From positions 186,001 to 250,000 of the forward strand of contig NZ_WESE01000002.1 of NCBI RefSeq assembly GCF_009184895.1: a DNA stretch of 64,000 nt, given 5' to 3'. Made by a program: the position numbers and the translations under genes. The notes under the pieces were generated by a model. It worked only from the letters and a program-made list of their open reading frames with translations, did no database searches and was not told the DNA's origin. The stretch's first letter is position 1. The number at the start of each line of letters is the position of its first letter. The stretch comes from Nostocoides sp. F2B08. Its GTDB lineage: Bacteria > Actinomycetota > Actinomycetes > Actinomycetales > Dermatophilaceae. Below, piece by piece: positions 46,871-53,089 of the stretch.

Positions 46871-47815
46871 GGGCGTGTTGATCAAGGGGTTCGGGGTGTT
46901 GGTCGGCCAGTGTTGACCGTGTGACGCGTCGCGAGATCCCTGATGAGGTGTGGGCTGTGCTGGAGCCGATGCTGCCGGCGAGCAAGACGGCGGGGCGGCC
47001 GTGGACGGATCACCGTGGCGCGCTCGAGGGCATGGTGTGGAAGTACCGCACCGGGGCGCCGTGGCGGGATGTGCCGGAGCGGTTCGGGAAGTGGAACTCG
47101 ATCTACAAGAGGTTCAACCGGTGGGCCGGCGACGGCACCTGGGAGGCACTGCTGGCCGAGGTGCACAAGCTCGCCGACGCCTCCGGGGAGGTCGAGTGGG
47201 TGGTCGCCATCGACTCCACGATCGCGCGGGTGCATCAGCACGGTGCGACCCTGGCGCGAGGCACGGGGGGCGGAGTCGAATCACAAGAATCCGCCGTGGT
47301 GGGAGCCGCCTGACCATGGGATCGGCCGCTCCCGAGGCGGCCTGACCTGCAAGGTCCACCTGGTCGCGGACGGCAAGGGCAGGCCGTTGTCGTGGGCGGT
47401 GACGGCCGGCAACATCAACGACACCACCATGTTGAGCACCGTCCTGGACGGCATCCGCGTCCCGCGCCTGGGTCCGGGCCGGCCGAGGACCCGCCCGGAT
47501 CGGGTGCTGGCCGACAAGGGCTACCCGTCCAAGGCGAACCGGGCCTGGCTGCGCGCCCGCGGGATCGCCGCGACGATCCCGGAGCGGGAGGACCAGATCG
47601 CGCACCGGGCCAAGAGGCCCGGCCGCCCGATCGACTTCGGCGCCGAGCAGCAGCAGCGCTACCGCGCCCGTAACGTCGTCGAACGCTGCTTCAACAAGCT
47701 CAAGCAGTGGCGCGGGATCGCGATGCGCACCGACAAACTCGCCCGCAACTACCGAGCCGCGATCGCCCTGGCCGCCACCCTGATCTGGCTACGCAGCACC
47801 TTGATCAACACGGCC
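46871..47815 (+). mobile_element. IS5-family insertion sequence, 945 bp
   Basis: The ends GGGCGTGTTGATCAAGG and CCTTGATCAACACGGCC are imperfect terminal inverted repeats (one mismatch in 17). The element is flanked by the direct repeat TA at 46869-46870 and 47816-47817, the target duplication typical of this family. It lies between bpa and the FAD/Fe-S oxidoreductase gene. Its right end is read as part of a stop codon in both flanking frames. Confidence 0.88.
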
Positions 47816-47818
47816 TAG
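46921..47818 (+). CDS. IS5-family transposase in two frames
   Basis: The first frame (46921-47313, GTG start) encodes the N-terminal part with IPDEVWAVLEPMLP, GAPWRDVPERFGKWNSIYKR and the first catalytic Asp in VAIDSTIARVHQHG. The second frame (ending at 47818) carries EPPDHGIGRSRGGLTCKVHL, the second Asp in VLADKGYPS, and the final Glu in RNVVERCFNKLKQWRG. A +1 change of frame is needed between 47265 (a run of six G) and 47313. Many IS5 relatives use programmed frameshifting, so the element may be active; simple decay is the alternative. The stop codon TAG uses the TA target duplication plus a host G. Confidence 0.87.
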
Positions 47819-50586
47819 CCCGCGAGCAGCTCGGCGAGGTGCACGCCCTGGCGGCCGGCGAGGTCTGCCGCCTGGGTGCGGCAGGAGAACCCGTCGGCGA
47901 GCAGCACGGCGTCCGGGTGGGCGCGCAGGGCCGGCAGCAGCTGCTGCTCGGCGACGGCGACCGAAACCTCGTAGTGCCCGGTCTCCATCCCGAAGTTGCC
48001 CGCCATGCCGCAGCACCCGCCCAACCGGACCACCTCGGCCCCGGCGCGCTCCAGGACCGCCTGGTCGGCCGCATACCCCATCACGGCGTGCTGGTGGCAG
48101 TGCGGCTGGGCGATGACCGTCGTCCCCGACAGGTCCGGCGGCGCCCAGTCCGCGAGGCCGTCCAGGAGCTCGGCGAGGGTATGCGTCGCCCGGGCGACCG
48201 CTCGGGCGCTCGCCTCGTCCGCGGTGCCGGTCAGCAGGTCGAGGGCGTCCGACCGCAGGACCGCGGTGCAGGACGGCTCGAGTCCGACGACCGGCACACC
48301 GGCCTCGGCAGCCGGCGCGAGTCGCCTGACGAGGTCGGCGACGCGATTGCGGGCCTCGGCGCGCTGACCGGTCGAGATCCAGGTCAGACCGCAGCAGTCG
48401 CCCTGGTGGGTGAAGGTGACCGACCGACCGGCAGCGGTGAGCAGCTCGGCCGCCGCCTCGGCCACGTGCGGGGCGAACGCCTCGGTGAAGGTGTCGACGA
48501 ACACCACGACCGGCTCGCCCGAGCCGGCCGGTGCCGTGCGCTTCAGCCGCCGCCGTAACGGCACGGGGAGGGAGCGACGTCCGTCGATCCCGGCGAGCCG
48601 AGACGCCCACCCGCTCCCCTGTGCCACGGCGATTCCGGCCCGCGCCACCGGGGACAGCACGCGCGGCGCCGCACCGAGCAGACCCAGCCAGCGCGGGAGC
48701 GCACCGAGCACGTGGTGGCTCATGGGTCGACGTTCTGAGGCATAGCGCTCCTCGAGCGCGAGCGACTTGTAGGTCGCCATGTCGACGCCCGTCGGGCAGT
48801 CCGAGAGGCACCCCTTGCAGGACAGGCACAGCTCGAGTGCGTCGGCGACCGCCGGGTCCGCGACGCCCTGCGGGAGGTGTCCGTCGATGGCGTCCTGGAG
48901 AACGCGAGCGCGCCCGCGCGTGGAGTCGGTCTCCTCACGGGTCGCCAGGTAGGACGGGCACATGACGACACCGGGCCCGGTGTGGTCGGCTCGGCACCGG
49001 CCGACGCCGGTGCACCGGAAGGCGCCGTTCAGACCCTCCCGGTCGGCCGGCTGGAGACGGAGGTCGCGGTCGAGCGGGGCCGGGTCGACGAGGACGCCGG
49101 GGTTGAGCGCGTCGCCGGGGTCGAAGGCGTCCTTGACCGCGGCCATCACCGCCAGCGCGTCGGTCGAGTACATCCGGGTGAGCAGCTCGCTGCGGGCCCG
49201 GCCGTCGCCGTGCTCCCCGCTGAGCGAGCCGCCGTAGGAGACGACGAGGTCGGCTGCCGCCTCGACGAAGGCGCGGTATGCGGTGCTCCCGTCGAGCGGG
49301 ACGTCCACCCGGATGTGCAGGCACCCGTCCCCGAAGTGGCCGTACGGGAGGCCGGTGAGGTCGTGCTCGAGGAGCAGGTCGTCGAAGTCGCGCAGGTAGG
49401 CGCCGAGGCGCTCCGGCGGGACCGCCGCGTCCTCCCAGCCCGCGTGCGCCGGGCGGCCGCGCGGCGAGGTGCTGGACAGGCCCGCCCCGTCCTCGCGGAT
49501 CCGCCACAGTGCCGCCGCGTCGAGCGGGTCCCCGACGACGAGACCGGTGGCGCCGTCGACGGAGTGGATGAGCTCCGCGCCCCGGGCGGCGACCTCGCCG
49601 GGGTCGTCCCCGGCGAGCTCGACGAAGAGCCACGCAGCGCCTTTCGGCAAGGGCGGGACGGCGAGAGGACCGAAGCGGTCCCGCACGACGTCGACGATCC
49701 TGCGGTCGATGCCCTCACACGCGCGCGGCGTCCAGGTCAGCACGGTGGGCACGGCGTCACCGGCCTCGCCGATGGAGCCGAAACCCAGGACGACGAGCAC
49801 GGTGGCGGGCGGATCGGGGACGAGGTCCACGGTGGCGGACGTGAGCAGCCCGAGCGTCCCCTCGCTGCCCGCGACGAACGCCGGGGCGGCGAACCGTTCG
49901 GGGAGGAGGTGCTCCAGCGCATACCCGGACACCTGTCGGCCGAAGCGTCCGCTCTCCGTGCGCACGACACCGATCCGCGCATCGACCGCGCGGCAGGCGG
50001 CCTCCCAGGACGGGTGCAGCGCTCGCACCGTCTGGCGCGGATCCTCGCGCCGGACGGTGACGAGGGAGCCGTCGGCGAGCACCATCGACAGGGCGGCGAG
50101 GGTGTCGCTCGTGCGTCCGTAGCCGAGGGCCCGGGTGCCGCACGCGTTGTTGCCGACCATCCCGCCGATCGTGCAGCGGGAGTGCGACGAGGGGTCCGGG
50201 CCAAAACGCAGCCCCAGCGGTCGCACCCGCCGCTGCAGGCTCGCGTGCACCACTCCGGGCTCGACCGTCGCCGTGCGCGCTTCGACGTCGACGTCCAGGA
50301 TGCGGGTCAGGTGTCGGCTGCAGTCCACGATGACACCGGTCCCGACGGCGTTGCCGGCGATGGAGGTGCCGCCGCCTCGGGCGGTGACGGGCACCCCGAG
50401 CTCCATGCAGGCGGCGAGGACCACGGGGATCTCGTCGACCCCGCGCGGGCGGGCGACGGCCAGTGGCTCGAGGCGGTACAGGGAGGCGTCGCTCGAGTAC
50501 GCCGAGCGCAGCGTGCGGTCGACGCGGACATCGGCCACACCGCGCGCCCGGAGGGCTGCGGCGACCCGGTCAGCGGTGGCGGGCAC
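47815..50586 (-). CDS. FAD-linked and Fe-S-binding oxidoreductase (D-lactate dehydrogenase-like)
   Basis: This 923-residue protein fuses a GlcD-type FAD-binding domain (PVTARGGGTSIAGNAVGTGV, GMVGNNACGTRALGYG, and a C-terminal cap with YGHFGDGCLHIRVD) with Fe-S domains (CLSCKGCLSDCPTGVDMATY) and paired CCG cysteine motifs (GDCCGLTWI, GGCCGMAGNFGMETGHYE). Related proteins oxidise D-lactate, glycolate or other 2-hydroxy acids and pass electrons to quinones. It is the last gene of a four-gene minus-strand unit, 6 nt after the sucrase/ferredoxin-like gene. The stop TAG is formed partly from the IS5 element end. Confidence 0.9.
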   Translation of the reverse strand: MPATADRVAAALRARGVADVRVDRTLRSAYSSDASLYRLEPLAVARPRGVDEIPVVLAACMELGVPVTARGGGTSIAGNAVGTGVIVDCSRHLTRILDVDVEARTATVEPGVVHASLQRRVRPLGLRFGPDPSSHSRCTIGGMVGNNACGTRALGYGRTSDTLAALSMVLADGSLVTVRREDPRQTVRALHPSWEAACRAVDARIGVVRTESGRFGRQVSGYALEHLLPERFAAPAFVAGSEGTLGLLTSATVDLVPDPPATVLVVLGFGSIGEAGDAVPTVLTWTPRACEGIDRRIVDVVRDRFGPLAVPPLPKGAAWLFVELAGDDPGEVAARGAELIHSVDGATGLVVGDPLDAAALWRIREDGAGLSSTSPRGRPAHAGWEDAAVPPERLGAYLRDFDDLLLEHDLTGLPYGHFGDGCLHIRVDVPLDGSTAYRAFVEAAADLVVSYGGSLSGEHGDGRARSELLTRMYSTDALAVMAAVKDAFDPGDALNPGVLVDPAPLDRDLRLQPADREGLNGAFRCTGVGRCRADHTGPGVVMCPSYLATREETDSTRGRARVLQDAIDGHLPQGVADPAVADALELCLSCKGCLSDCPTGVDMATYKSLALEERYASERRPMSHHVLGALPRWLGLLGAAPRVLSPVARAGIAVAQGSGWASRLAGIDGRRSLPVPLRRRLKRTAPAGSGEPVVVFVDTFTEAFAPHVAEAAAELLTAAGRSVTFTHQGDCCGLTWISTGQRAEARNRVADLVRRLAPAAEAGVPVVGLEPSCTAVLRSDALDLLTGTADEASARAVARATHTLAELLDGLADWAPPDLSGTTVIAQPHCHQHAVMGYAADQAVLERAGAEVVRLGGCCGMAGNFGMETGHYEVSVAVAEQQLLPALRAHPDAVLLADGFSCRTQAADLAGRQGVHLAELLAG

Positions 50587-50592
50587 GTCGGC

Positions 50593-51501
50593 TCACCGCA
50601 CGACGTACTCGGCCGCGGTGGTCGGCCGCAGCGCACTGCATGTGAGTCGCTCCGGCTCGCGCCAGTGGCGCTCGACGGTGAGGACGGTATGCGCGGGCAG
50701 GCTCCCGCGTCCGTCGAGCCCGACCTCCCACACCCCGTCGCCGGTGGGGTGTACGCCGGTGACGGCCAGGTCGACGAGGCGGCGTGAGCCGCTCCGCCGG
50801 AGCATCGCGAGCACGGCGGCCTGGGCGGCCGAGTGGTGCACACCCGCGCCGCGGAGGTGATCGAGGTCCACCTCACCGACGAGGTGGCCGGCGACGACGG
50901 ATTCGGCGCCCCCGGCATCGAGCCCGCCGTAGAACACCGAGTCGGGGAGCATGGCGAGGTTGCCGGCGAAGCGGTCGCCGCCGAGGTGACTGCACTCCCA
51001 CACCAGCTCCGGCCACCGGCGAGCGAGCTCCGCCGCAATCGGGCGGCCGCGGACGGCGCAGCAGACGTCGTGCTTGGCATGGGTGCACACGAGCGCCATC
51101 GGCTCAGCCGGGACCATGCGGGCGTCCGCGTCGGCGCGACGGATGTCGACGAGGTCGAGTGCGGCACGTACGTCGTCGTGGGTCGCCCACTGTCCGCGCA
51201 CCCAGGTGCGGTTCACCGAGTCGACGAACCACCAGGACCGGGGCGCTCCGGGGGCCGCCCGGCCGGGCCGGCGCACGAGCATCGGCCGGACCTCCACGGC
51301 CAGGGTCCGCCGGTCGATCTCGGGCCCGAGCTCGTCGCCGAAGATCCGGGTGGCCCTGACCGGCCAGCGCCCTGGGCACTCGAACAACAGCCAGCCGCGG
51401 GCGGGCGGGGCGCTGCCGACGAGAGGGTCCGCACGACCCCGGGCCCGGACGCTGCACGTGTCGGCGCCGAGGCGCGTCACAGGCGTGCGGTCCGAGGTCA
51501 C
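50593..51501 (-). CDS. Sucrase/ferredoxin-like (Apd1-type) protein
   Basis: This 302-residue protein has the sucraseferredoxin pattern, a thioredoxin-like fold that binds a [2Fe-2S] cluster in yeast Apd1 and relatives. The metal-site motif is LVCTHAKHDVCC (Cys139, Cys147, Cys148) with WECSHLGGDRFAGN (Cys170, His172) following. Such proteins could carry electrons between an oxygenase and a reductase. The start overlaps the stop of the JmjC gene by 4 nt (ATGA 51498-51501) and the FAD oxidoreductase gene follows after 6 nt, so the three genes are translated together. Confidence 0.85.
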   Translation of the reverse strand: MTSDRTPVTRLGADTCSVRARGRADPLVGSAPPARGWLLFECPGRWPVRATRIFGDELGPEIDRRTLAVEVRPMLVRRPGRAAPGAPRSWWFVDSVNRTWVRGQWATHDDVRAALDLVDIRRADADARMVPAEPMALVCTHAKHDVCCAVRGRPIAAELARRWPELVWECSHLGGDRFAGNLAMLPDSVFYGGLDAGGAESVVAGHLVGEVDLDHLRGAGVHHSAAQAAVLAMLRRSGSRRLVDLAVTGVHPTGDGVWEVGLDGRGSLPAHTVLTVERHWREPERLTCSALRPTTAAEYVVR

Positions 51502-52706
51502 AACGTCGATGGTATGCAGACGCCCGCACGCAGCAGCCGCTCGGCCAGGTCAGGTGAGACCGTGACCGGCCCCGCGACCTCGAGGAGCTTCTCGACGTCG
51601 GCGAGCTCCGAGCGCTCCAACGGCACGTCGCGGACCCGGGTGACCAGTCGGAGCGGGTCGCGCTCGAGCCGGGGGCGGAGATGGGCGCGCAGCTCGACCC
51701 GTGTGGTCCCCTCGCGTGCCGCGCGAAGCTGTCCGACCGGACCGAGCGGACCGACCCGCTGACCGGCTCGCGCCTTGGCGGCGAGCAGAGCCGCGACCGC
51801 CTCATCGGGTAGCGCGTCGATGGCGGTCACAAGCGCGTCCCGCACGACGCGGGCGTCGTCGCGCCACGTCGTCGCATCGGCCACGTCGACACCGAGGGCC
51901 AGCGAGGAGCGCGCATTCTCGTCGTCGGCCAGACGGCGCAGGGCTGCCGCGGTCAGCTGCTCCGCAATGTGGTGTCGCGTCCACTGGTGGACCCCGATCG
52001 TCAGGTGGATCGACACCTCGCCCATGGCGGTGGCCGAGTGGAGGTACCCCCGCGGGAGGTACAGCACGTCGCCGGGCGACATGACGAACTCGTCGAGCGG
52101 TGGGGCGCCGGCGGCCTCGTCGACCGCGGCGCGGCGCTGGTCCCACGGCTGGTCACGCAACGGCAGCGGCCAGACCGGCTCGCGGATGCGCCACCGCTTC
52201 TCCCCCTCGACCTGGACGACGAAGACGTCGTGCACGTCGTAGTGGTCGCTGAACCCGGTGTTCTGGGGAGGTGTGACGTAGGCGTTGACCTGGCAGGGAT
52301 GGCCGAGGTCGGCGGCCAGGTCCTGGGTGAAGCGCAGGAGTGGCTCGTAGGAGCGGTGCAAGGCTTGGAGCACGAGCGTGGCACCGGCCTCGAAGTGTCG
52401 CCACACGAGGTCGTCGTTGAGCTGGTCGGCGACGGTGGCCCCGACACCGCCACCACTGGTGAACTCCCGGTCGCCGAACGTCCGTCCGTCCTTGGCGACG
52501 CGCAGGAACGGCGCTCGAAGACCGCGCACGCTGACCAGCTCGTCGACGGCGTCACCGGAGAAGAGGTCCCCGACCGGTCCGGCCGTCGCACGCAACGGCC
52601 GGCGTCCCCAGTGGGCCTCGGCGAACTCGGCGACGGAGACGTCGCCGAGGAGACGGGGGAGAGCAGCCGCGGTGTGCGGCTGCTCTCCCGAGAGGGTATG
52701 CGTCAT
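51498..52706 (-). CDS. JmjC/cupin-type Fe(II)/2-oxoglutarate oxygenase
   Basis: This 402-residue protein resembles the ROXA/NO66 family of JmjC hydroxylases, which hydroxylate residues in ribosomal proteins. The iron triad is His155-x-Asp157 in GFSDHYDVHDVF and His223 in GYLHSATA, within the beta-barrel region (LYLPRGYLHSATAMGEVSIH). The N-terminus (WGRRPLRA) and C-terminal winged-helix-like region fit ROX proteins. Its substrate may be the ribosome as in YcfD, or the repeat protein whose gene precedes it by 5 nt. Start ATG at 52706. Confidence 0.87.
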   Translation of the reverse strand: MTHTLSGEQPHTAAALPRLLGDVSVAEFAEAHWGRRPLRATAGPVGDLFSGDAVDELVSVRGLRAPFLRVAKDGRTFGDREFTSGGGVGATVADQLNDDLVWRHFEAGATLVLQALHRSYEPLLRFTQDLAADLGHPCQVNAYVTPPQNTGFSDHYDVHDVFVVQVEGEKRWRIREPVWPLPLRDQPWDQRRAAVDEAAGAPPLDEFVMSPGDVLYLPRGYLHSATAMGEVSIHLTIGVHQWTRHHIAEQLTAAALRRLADDENARSSLALGVDVADATTWRDDARVVRDALVTAIDALPDEAVAALLAAKARAGQRVGPLGPVGQLRAAREGTTRVELRAHLRPRLERDPLRLVTRVRDVPLERSELADVEKLLEVAGPVTVSPDLAERLLRAGVCIPSTL

Positions 52707-52711
52707 GCGGG

Positions 52712-53071
52712 TCAGGCGCTCCCGTCGGCACCACCGTCAGCGCCACCATCTGCCCCACCGTCGGCGCCGCCATCTGCTCCACCGCCTGCGGCTCCACCGT
52801 CGGCCGGGCCGTGGCCGGCCGCGCCGTCAGCGCCGCCATCTGCCCCACCGTCGGCGCCGCCATCTGCTCCACCGCCTGCGGCTCCACCGTCGGCCGGGCC
52901 GTGGCCGGCCGCGTCGTCAGCGCCACCGTCAGCGCCACCGTCGGCGCCGCCATCTGCTCCACCGTCTGCGCCGCCATCTGCCCCACCGTCTGCGCCACCG
53001 CCTGCGGCTCCACCGTCGGCCGGGCCGTGGCCTGGGTTGGTCAGCTCGTCATCTCCGGGACTGGTCGTCAT
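52712..53071 (-). CDS. Gly-Gly-Ala-Asp repeat protein
   Basis: This 119-residue product starts with a short leader (MTTSPGDDELTNP) and is otherwise built from three blocks. Each block opens with GHGPADGGAAG and continues with GGAD units: seven in the first, four in the second, five in the third. It has about 20 Asp, three His, no Cys and no bulky residues, so it is intrinsically disordered. The ATG at 53071 was chosen because GGAGG lies 5 nt upstream. It directly precedes the JmjC oxygenase gene (5 nt), making it a candidate substrate. No family is recognised; an accidental expansion cannot be excluded, but the leader, ribosome site and in-frame repeats argue for a real gene. Confidence 0.6.
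   Translation of the reverse strand: MTTSPGDDELTNPGHGPADGGAAGGGADGGADGGADGGADGGADGGADGGADDAAGHGPADGGAAGGGADGGADGGADGGADGAAGHGPADGGAAGGGADGGADGGADGGADGGADGSA
52734..52913. repeat. Two tandem 90-bp direct repeats
   Basis: 52734-52823 and 52824-52913 are identical over 90 bp except for one base (A at 52746, G at 52836). Each encodes one 30-residue block of the GGAD protein. The near-identity indicates a recent duplication. Smaller 12-bp units inside encode GGAD. Confidence 0.9.
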
Positions 53072-53089
53072 TCGTGCCTCCATCGGATC

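Follow-up and report, generated by a model that had tools for sequence, protein, structure and literature searches.

An apparently undescribed RiPP-like cassette in Actinomycetota pairs an Asp-rich repeat peptide with a ROX-type JmjC oxygenase

Results

Organization of the locus

The window, i.e., the whole stretch of 64,000 nucleotides analysed here, comes from Nostocoides sp. F2B08 (contig NZ_WESE01000002.1), and all coordinates given are window positions. Four genes follow one another on the minus strand in the order repeat peptide, JmjC oxygenase, Suc_Fer protein and FAD/4Fe-4S oxidoreductase, with spacings of 5, -4 and 6 nt, a layout identical in coordinates and spacings to that given by the initial annotation. 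The features of the locus are as follows.

52712..53071 (-), gene for the Asp-rich repeat peptide (119 aa), an ORF and the proposed substrate or precursor
53077..53081 (-), GGAGG ribosome-binding site of the peptide gene, 5 nt before the ATG, as read from the sequence
53039..53056 (-), GDDELT, a possible N-terminal leader remnant, judged by its position and its likeness to the (L/V)(S/T)DEDIxTV leaders of distant homologues
53000..53032 (-), GHGPADGGAAG block, copy 1, from repeat-unit comparison
52874..52906 (-), GHGPADGGAAG block, copy 2, from repeat-unit comparison
52784..52816 (-), GHGPADGGAAG block, copy 3, from repeat-unit comparison
51498..52706 (-), ROX-type Fe(II)/2-oxoglutarate oxygenase with a JmjC_2 domain (PF08007), 402 aa, from Pfam (1.6e-28) and a structure model
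52236..52244 (-), H155-x-D157, predicted iron ligands of JmjC, invariant in 136/136 clade members
52038..52040 (-), H223, predicted third iron ligand of JmjC, invariant in 136/136 clade members
51510..51701 (-), C-terminal winged-helix-like domain of JmjC (residues 336-399), from the model and ROX match; a candidate for the leader-binding part
50593..51501 (-), Suc_Fer, a sucrase/ferredoxin-like (PF06999) thioredoxin-like [2Fe-2S] protein, from Pfam (3.3e-17) and fold match
50974..51087 (-), putative cluster-binding region of Suc_Fer, C139-x8-C148...H172-x3-D176, from conserved columns and comparison with CX8CXnHX3H of Aim32
47815..50586 (-), FAD/4Fe-4S oxidoreductase, GlcD/YdiJ-like, a non-core neighbour, from Pfam (FAD-oxidase_C, 4.1e-46) and NCBIfam

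Neither sigma-70-type promoters nor intrinsic terminators were found inside the four-gene unit, and upstream matches to IdeR, Zur, CatR or Rex-like boxes were no better than those in shuffled sequences. The FAD/Fe-S protein is similar to GlcD/YdiJ/GlpC-type enzymes, with scores under all NCBIfam cut-offs. The initial annotation had counted it as a member of the unit; its linkage is limited to the genus (L001, L002/L031 and L220), and for this reason it was rejected as a core part. The FAD/Fe-S gene has an IS4/5-family transposase (46921-47818, plus strand) directly at its stop codon, encoded in two overlapping frames (DUF4096 and DDE_Tnp_1); despite this, the FAD/Fe-S protein aligns with its relatives to its end. 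In the wider neighbourhood, no protease, exporter/transporter, methyltransferase or regulator was widely shared within 5 kb, and no ligase or other tailoring gene was conserved near JmjC, in 80 genomes.

The repeat ORF is a coding sequence

The 119-aa peptide of the window is made up largely of 50 Gly, 30 Ala and 22 Asp, with 3 His, which agrees with the roughly 20 evenly spaced Asp and three His first ascribed to it. It has no Pfam or NCBIfam match, and none of the Pfam/NCBIfam models searched in several lineages covers the peptide.

Slippage in high-GC genomes gives rise to low-complexity repeats. The strand opposite the repeat ORF is also open, as might be the case if the ORF were non-coding or had arisen as an artefact of slippage in GC-rich DNA. 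Against such an artefact, the 16 DGGA units are encoded by nine DNA versions of a 12-nt unit that all specify one protein unit, and every variable column among them falls at a third codon position, as would be expected if purifying selection acted on the protein encoded in this frame. Moreover, a good Shine-Dalgarno sequence precedes the gene, the peptide is conserved across the phylum, and the repeat pattern read backwards is almost absent. Because the changes are synonymous only and the repeat recurs upstream of a homologous gene in other genera, it is no accident of GC-rich DNA. The third-position differences rule out a spurious repeat ORF at the sequence level, and we accord the artefact a negligible probability.

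The peptide gene and JmjC are a conserved pair

JmjC homologues were gathered regardless of the presence of a peptide from 4 genomes of the genus, 188 of the family, 297 of the order and 397 of the phylum, plus 80 named JmjC loci drawn from 85,462 collected species genomes. Genera among the named loci include Streptomyces, Arthrobacter, Kocuria, Brachybacterium, Brevibacterium, Nocardioides, Aeromicrobium, Microlunatus, Mumia, Nakamurella, Terrabacter, Knoellia and Janibacter. In nearly all homologous loci collected, the end of an Asp-rich ORF lies near the start of JmjC. When one fixed criterion was applied, set after the peptides had been viewed and with loci cut short excluded, an Asp-rich, mostly repetitive ORF was located just upstream of JmjC at 159 of 162 distinct loci of Actinomycetota (at least 37.3% JmjC identity); 98 of 7772 control ORFs (1.3%) reached the same criterion. 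Nearly all of these loci were selected by JmjC alone, and the few extra ones fetched on purpose, since their genomes had no DGGADGGA pattern, work against the count. One of the three misses (L192) does possess a repeat ORF, with a smaller number of Asp. The initial annotation had named, as evidence against its idea, oxygenase homologues that lack such a gene in nearly all genomes; that search was run here, and the pairing survived it. Thus, the repeat gene and the JmjC oxygenase form a conserved pair, in keeping with the small precursor gene kept beside its modifying enzyme that is a mark of RiPPs.

In the 188 family genomes, strong JmjC matches and DGGADGGA-encoding DNA, a pattern that spans 32 genera in this survey, occurred together in 110, JmjC alone in 10, the pattern alone in 2 and neither in 66, and the co-occurrence statistics are inflated by ignoring kinship between genomes. 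Of the ten genomes with JmjC alone, those of the Arsenicicoccus-type group (L125, L126, L161, L162 and L163) have Asp-rich ORFs of other sequence, that of L162 being YDRDHGADGGADAGAG; in others, the upstream sequence ends at contig borders or runs of N, and two (L156 and L157) are true absences. Peptide genes are located at contig ends in G041 and G042, and runs of N lie upstream of JmjC in L185 and L160. In L156 and L157, JmjC is present and an adjacent Asp-rich ORF is truly absent. Most JmjC paralogues below about 35% identity (L148-L151 and L214-L218) are without an Asp-rich gene and were used as a negative comparison; L169 and L197, at about 33.5% JmjC identity, do have one.

Within the Arsenicicoccus-type group, the Asp-rich peptide of L125, L126, L161 and L163 is not repetitive and has a tail that is conserved (DDPELAGADL...GPTIEPGA), and their relative L162 contains DRDHGADGGADAGAG repeats, repeats being gained or lost among close relatives.

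Conservation of Asp and of an N-terminal leader

The repeat units vary considerably between lineages. Most Micrococcales, Streptomyces and Nocardioides have units of the EGPADGGAAGTPGV(H/Q)DGGADGGA type, and the core units of other lineages are GDADSGDSDATQVDPAGSDPAG, DADGTDGDATDGTDGDA, DADAADADASD, TDADADS or GDGAGDAAG. All 132 peptides scored contain at least 4 Asp in their last 45 residues. Asp accounts for 19.7% of their residues and Glu for 4.0%; as the set had been filtered for at least 14% Asp, the Asp figure is inflated, and the Glu, His and Cys figures were not chosen. His is absent from 41 of the 132 peptides, with Gln often taking its place in the repeats, and Cys is absent from all; aromatic residues are nearly absent, and most cores are without Lys. 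With hardly any Lys or Arg, the peptides would escape standard trypsin-based proteomics. Asp is the sole residue kept everywhere, and His and Cys are dispensable. Since Glu, which is equally acidic, makes up only 4.0%, mere acidity is argued against as the property under selection, and Asp is favoured over His as the target because it is always kept. A general role for His is unlikely given the 41 peptides that have none, and His was rejected as a general target on these grounds.

The distant peptides open with a common N-terminal leader, (L/V)(S/T)DEDIxTV, for example LSDEDINTV, LTDEDIETV and LSDDDITTT. By a strict pattern, this leader was found in 41 of 50 distant peptides compared to 7.4 in shuffled sequences, most misses being due to the chosen start codon or a conservative letter change. 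Intermediate lineages have a DDDIT leader in front of DGGA cores (L152-L155 and L176-L181). Because a shared leader precedes different cores, leader and core behave as separable modules, as in precursor peptides. This organization, a further mark of RiPPs, is clear in the distant lineages and weak or absent in the peptides of the window species, where the leader is at best a remnant (GDDELT), and of Streptomyces.

A relative in the genus (G003) encodes, away from the JmjC locus, a putative membrane protein (L164:3273-4469, plus strand) with an internal 'MTVDPTNAPSPEDEEIRAADGGADGGADGG...' stretch. This stretch resembles a leader followed by a DGGA core, and may be a second substrate.

The JmjC oxygenase

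The JmjC_2 domain was recognized by Pfam at 1.6e-28, with 99.2 bits against a curated cut-off of 22, and the predicted model is of high quality (pLDDT 93.5, pTM 0.89). The best Foldseek matches of the model, near full-length, were NO66, MINA, YxbC and YcfD, including the C-terminal winged-helix-like part, so that the predicted model and its match to NO66 display the full-length ROX fold with a C-terminal winged helix. The His-x-Asp...His triad first read from the sequence is intact (H155, D157 and H223), and these residues, together with K170 and R118, are present in 136/136 clade members, and R64 in 135. R64 and R118 are variable in paralogues without a peptide, and are candidates for residues that hold the carboxylate of the substrate. 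A quick tree built from 147 sequences places the JmjC proteins that have a peptide behind one branch (SH-aLRT 96), inside which a few long-branch paralogues without a peptide are also found, their placement being unsure. The window genome has no other PF08007 match, and defence-system models gave no match to the JmjC enzyme or Suc_Fer.

Some distant JmjC paralogues also follow small genes. For example, at L219:4793-6188, on a Streptomyces clavuligerus plasmid, JmjC follows a hypothetical gene on the scale of 49 aa and is itself followed by an S9 peptidase and an ABC transporter, and at L214 and L215, from two other genomes, it follows '...RSDGND' peptides. These three look like separate JmjC-tailored peptide clusters.

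Suc_Fer as a frequent third gene

Of 80 genomes, 57 have Suc_Fer downstream of JmjC, as do most distant loci. The inclusion of a 2Fe-2S-type gene in the unit by the initial annotation therefore stands for these genomes; it does not extend to the Terrabacter/Humibacillus-type loci (L038, L044, L045, L053, L054, L057 and related ones), where no Suc_Fer match was found beside JmjC within the fetched flank and the peptide and JmjC are kept. The Suc_Fer domain is above the Pfam cut-off, and its model matches thioredoxin-like [2Fe-2S] ferredoxins, namely those of Aquifex and the Azotobacter FeSI protein (E ~2e-3, probability 1.00). A previous study described the cluster motif of Aim32 as CX8CXnHX3H (PMC8482512). 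In Suc_Fer, C139, C148 and H172 are conserved, but the fourth ligand position is Asp176. Suc_Fer resembles the TLF proteins Apd1/Aim32 and thioredoxin-like [2Fe-2S] ferredoxins in fold and in a putative CX8C...H cluster motif, and differs from Apd1/Aim32 in having Asp176 for the second His and in a gene order tied to JmjC. It may keep the iron of the oxygenase ferrous or serve a second oxidation.

Discussion

The observation behind the initial annotation was correct, and these results strongly support its core idea, save for one correction. The cassette is real, widespread and RiPP-like, and apparently undescribed. We consider it probable that it is an actinobacterial RiPP-like cassette in which the peptide is the substrate of JmjC and is hydroxylated at many Asp. 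The window locus would then be one instance of a phylum-wide peptide-modification cassette, in which a ribosomally made Asp-rich repeat peptide serves as the dedicated substrate of the ROX-type JmjC enzyme encoded right after it. JmjC would most likely grip the N-terminal leader, perhaps via its C-terminal winged-helix-like domain, and then hydroxylate many core Asp, one after another, the beta carbon being the probable site. The thioredoxin-like [2Fe-2S] protein would probably keep the iron of the oxygenase reduced, or join a later redox step. The product is probably intracellular, because no dedicated protease or exporter travels with the cassette; of the usual marks of RiPPs this one was lacking, none being conserved within 5 kb in 80 genomes, and a dedicated protease or exporter is not obligatory for RiPPs. 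The parts of this scheme differ in strength. That the peptide is the substrate of JmjC appears very likely, and that the chemistry falls on Asp, somewhat more likely than the scheme as a whole. For beta-hydroxylation, as opposed to another oxidation, the chances are about even. Binding of metal ions by many beta-hydroxyaspartates is a first guess for the use of the product, and a rather speculative one.

Among the relatives of the enzyme, the best known target His (NO66 and MINA) or Arg (YcfD), which counts against this scheme. The closest solved structures are histidyl hydroxylases, and with three His in the window repeats and HDGG common among the peptides, JmjC might be thought to hydroxylate His, or else Pro, Gly or Ala. 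This is improbable, as 41 of 132 peptides are without His and often have Gln instead, Pro is not universal, and Gly and Ala, although frequent, are scarce in some Asp-dense cores (L145 and L183). The same relatives suggest another arrangement, in which the peptide is a partner of the oxygenase (an acidic regulator, an inhibitor or a metal buffer) and the target of the enzyme lies elsewhere, for example in a ribosomal protein such as those hydroxylated by NO66, MINA and YcfD; it is also in favour of this arrangement that the window genome is without a second PF08007 gene. On the contrary, a repeated motif and rapid change of all but Asp suit a multi-site substrate better, and precursors typically have leader and core modules that can be separated in this way. 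The joint loss of enzyme and peptide from 66 of 188 genomes is also not the behaviour of a housekeeping modification of the ribosome. We regard a mere partner role as unlikely, if less so than another target residue.

A further alternative accepts the peptide as the substrate and lets the chemistry go beyond hydroxylation, Asp being oxidised further, cross-linked, decarboxylated or converted to aspartimide/isoaspartate, with the ferredoxin provided for the extra step. 2OG oxygenases in general need no ferredoxin, and Suc_Fer is nonetheless a frequent third gene here. In many cases a core Asp precedes Gly, and aspartimide forms most readily in that context. Among the works cited in PMC12710340 is one that, by its title, reports macrocyclisation in RiPPs by a 2OG enzyme. 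However, the neighbourhood has no conserved methyltransferase, ligase or other gene for tailoring, the cores are without aromatic residues, Cys and, mostly, Lys, residues other than Gly come after Asp in DPAG, DADA and similar cores, and some lineages show no Suc_Fer beside JmjC. Further chemistry of this kind has, in our judgement, a modest chance, the largest among these alternatives to multi-site hydroxylation of Asp.

The cassette has partial counterparts in known systems. The ROX proteins of PF08007 (NO66, MINA53, YcfD and B. subtilis YxbC) resemble the present enzyme in the JmjC_2 domain, the HxD...H motif, the winged-helix-like C-terminus and a fold matched over nearly the full length, but the identity in the structural match is about 20%, and R64 and R118 are specific to the clade described here. 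NO66 and MINA53 target His and YcfD targets Arg, and the solved YxbC is labelled a putative asparaginyl hydroxylase. Whereas ROX enzymes act on a distant ribosomal protein, the gene linked here is a small Asp-rich one, and this genomic context would point to the Asp-rich peptide instead of a ribosomal-protein His as for NO66/MINA. BipG, a JmjC ornithine hydroxylase in biphenomycin RiPP biosynthesis (PMC12707348), is likewise a JmjC protein tailoring a ribosomal peptide; it modifies another residue, and its cluster has transporter, rSAM, MNIO and peptidase genes, in contrast to the two or three genes and the repetitive Asp-rich precursor here. Beta-hydroxylation of Asp in RiPPs is known from the 2OG enzyme of the DivX/cinnamycin type (PMC9505594) and from the MNIO PesHI (PMC13060819), which the available text of both reports places at one Asp in a short core. 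These two make beta-hydroxyaspartate by other enzyme families, whereas the cassette has a JmjC enzyme and many Asp. The available text of an RRE-Finder update (PMC12710340) puts bacterial homologues of fish/algal RRE-JmjC, also of PF08007, in RiPP-like contexts, and does not describe their precursor or organism; JmjC here has a C-terminal winged-helix-like domain, and these homologues may or may not be of the same clade. In the open-access literature we found nothing containing the peptide strings and no JmjC/Asp/RiPP system of such a kind, and an earlier description may exist elsewhere.

Judged by its parts, the cassette is of a known type, and its product could be categorically new. Substrates of JmjC oxygenases are usually hard to find, and the pairing suggests what the native substrate may be for a large branch of these enzymes that has none assigned. 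The cassette is present in such common genera as Streptomyces, Arthrobacter, Kocuria and Nocardioides, and model-based annotation is expected to miss the peptide because no Pfam or NCBIfam model covers it. To our knowledge, poly-(beta-hydroxyaspartate) repeat proteins are not known from any organism. It is possible, though we hold it tentatively, that such proteins are made inside the cell throughout the phylum by a ROX-type JmjC enzyme and a TLF ferredoxin, and that they are metal-binding or responsive to O2, iron or 2-oxoglutarate. If many Asp per chain are hydroxylated, the product would represent a modified acidic polymer of a new kind and a possible metal ligand, and the cassette, with two genes, would be a simple system in which to test repeated hydroxylation of a peptide.
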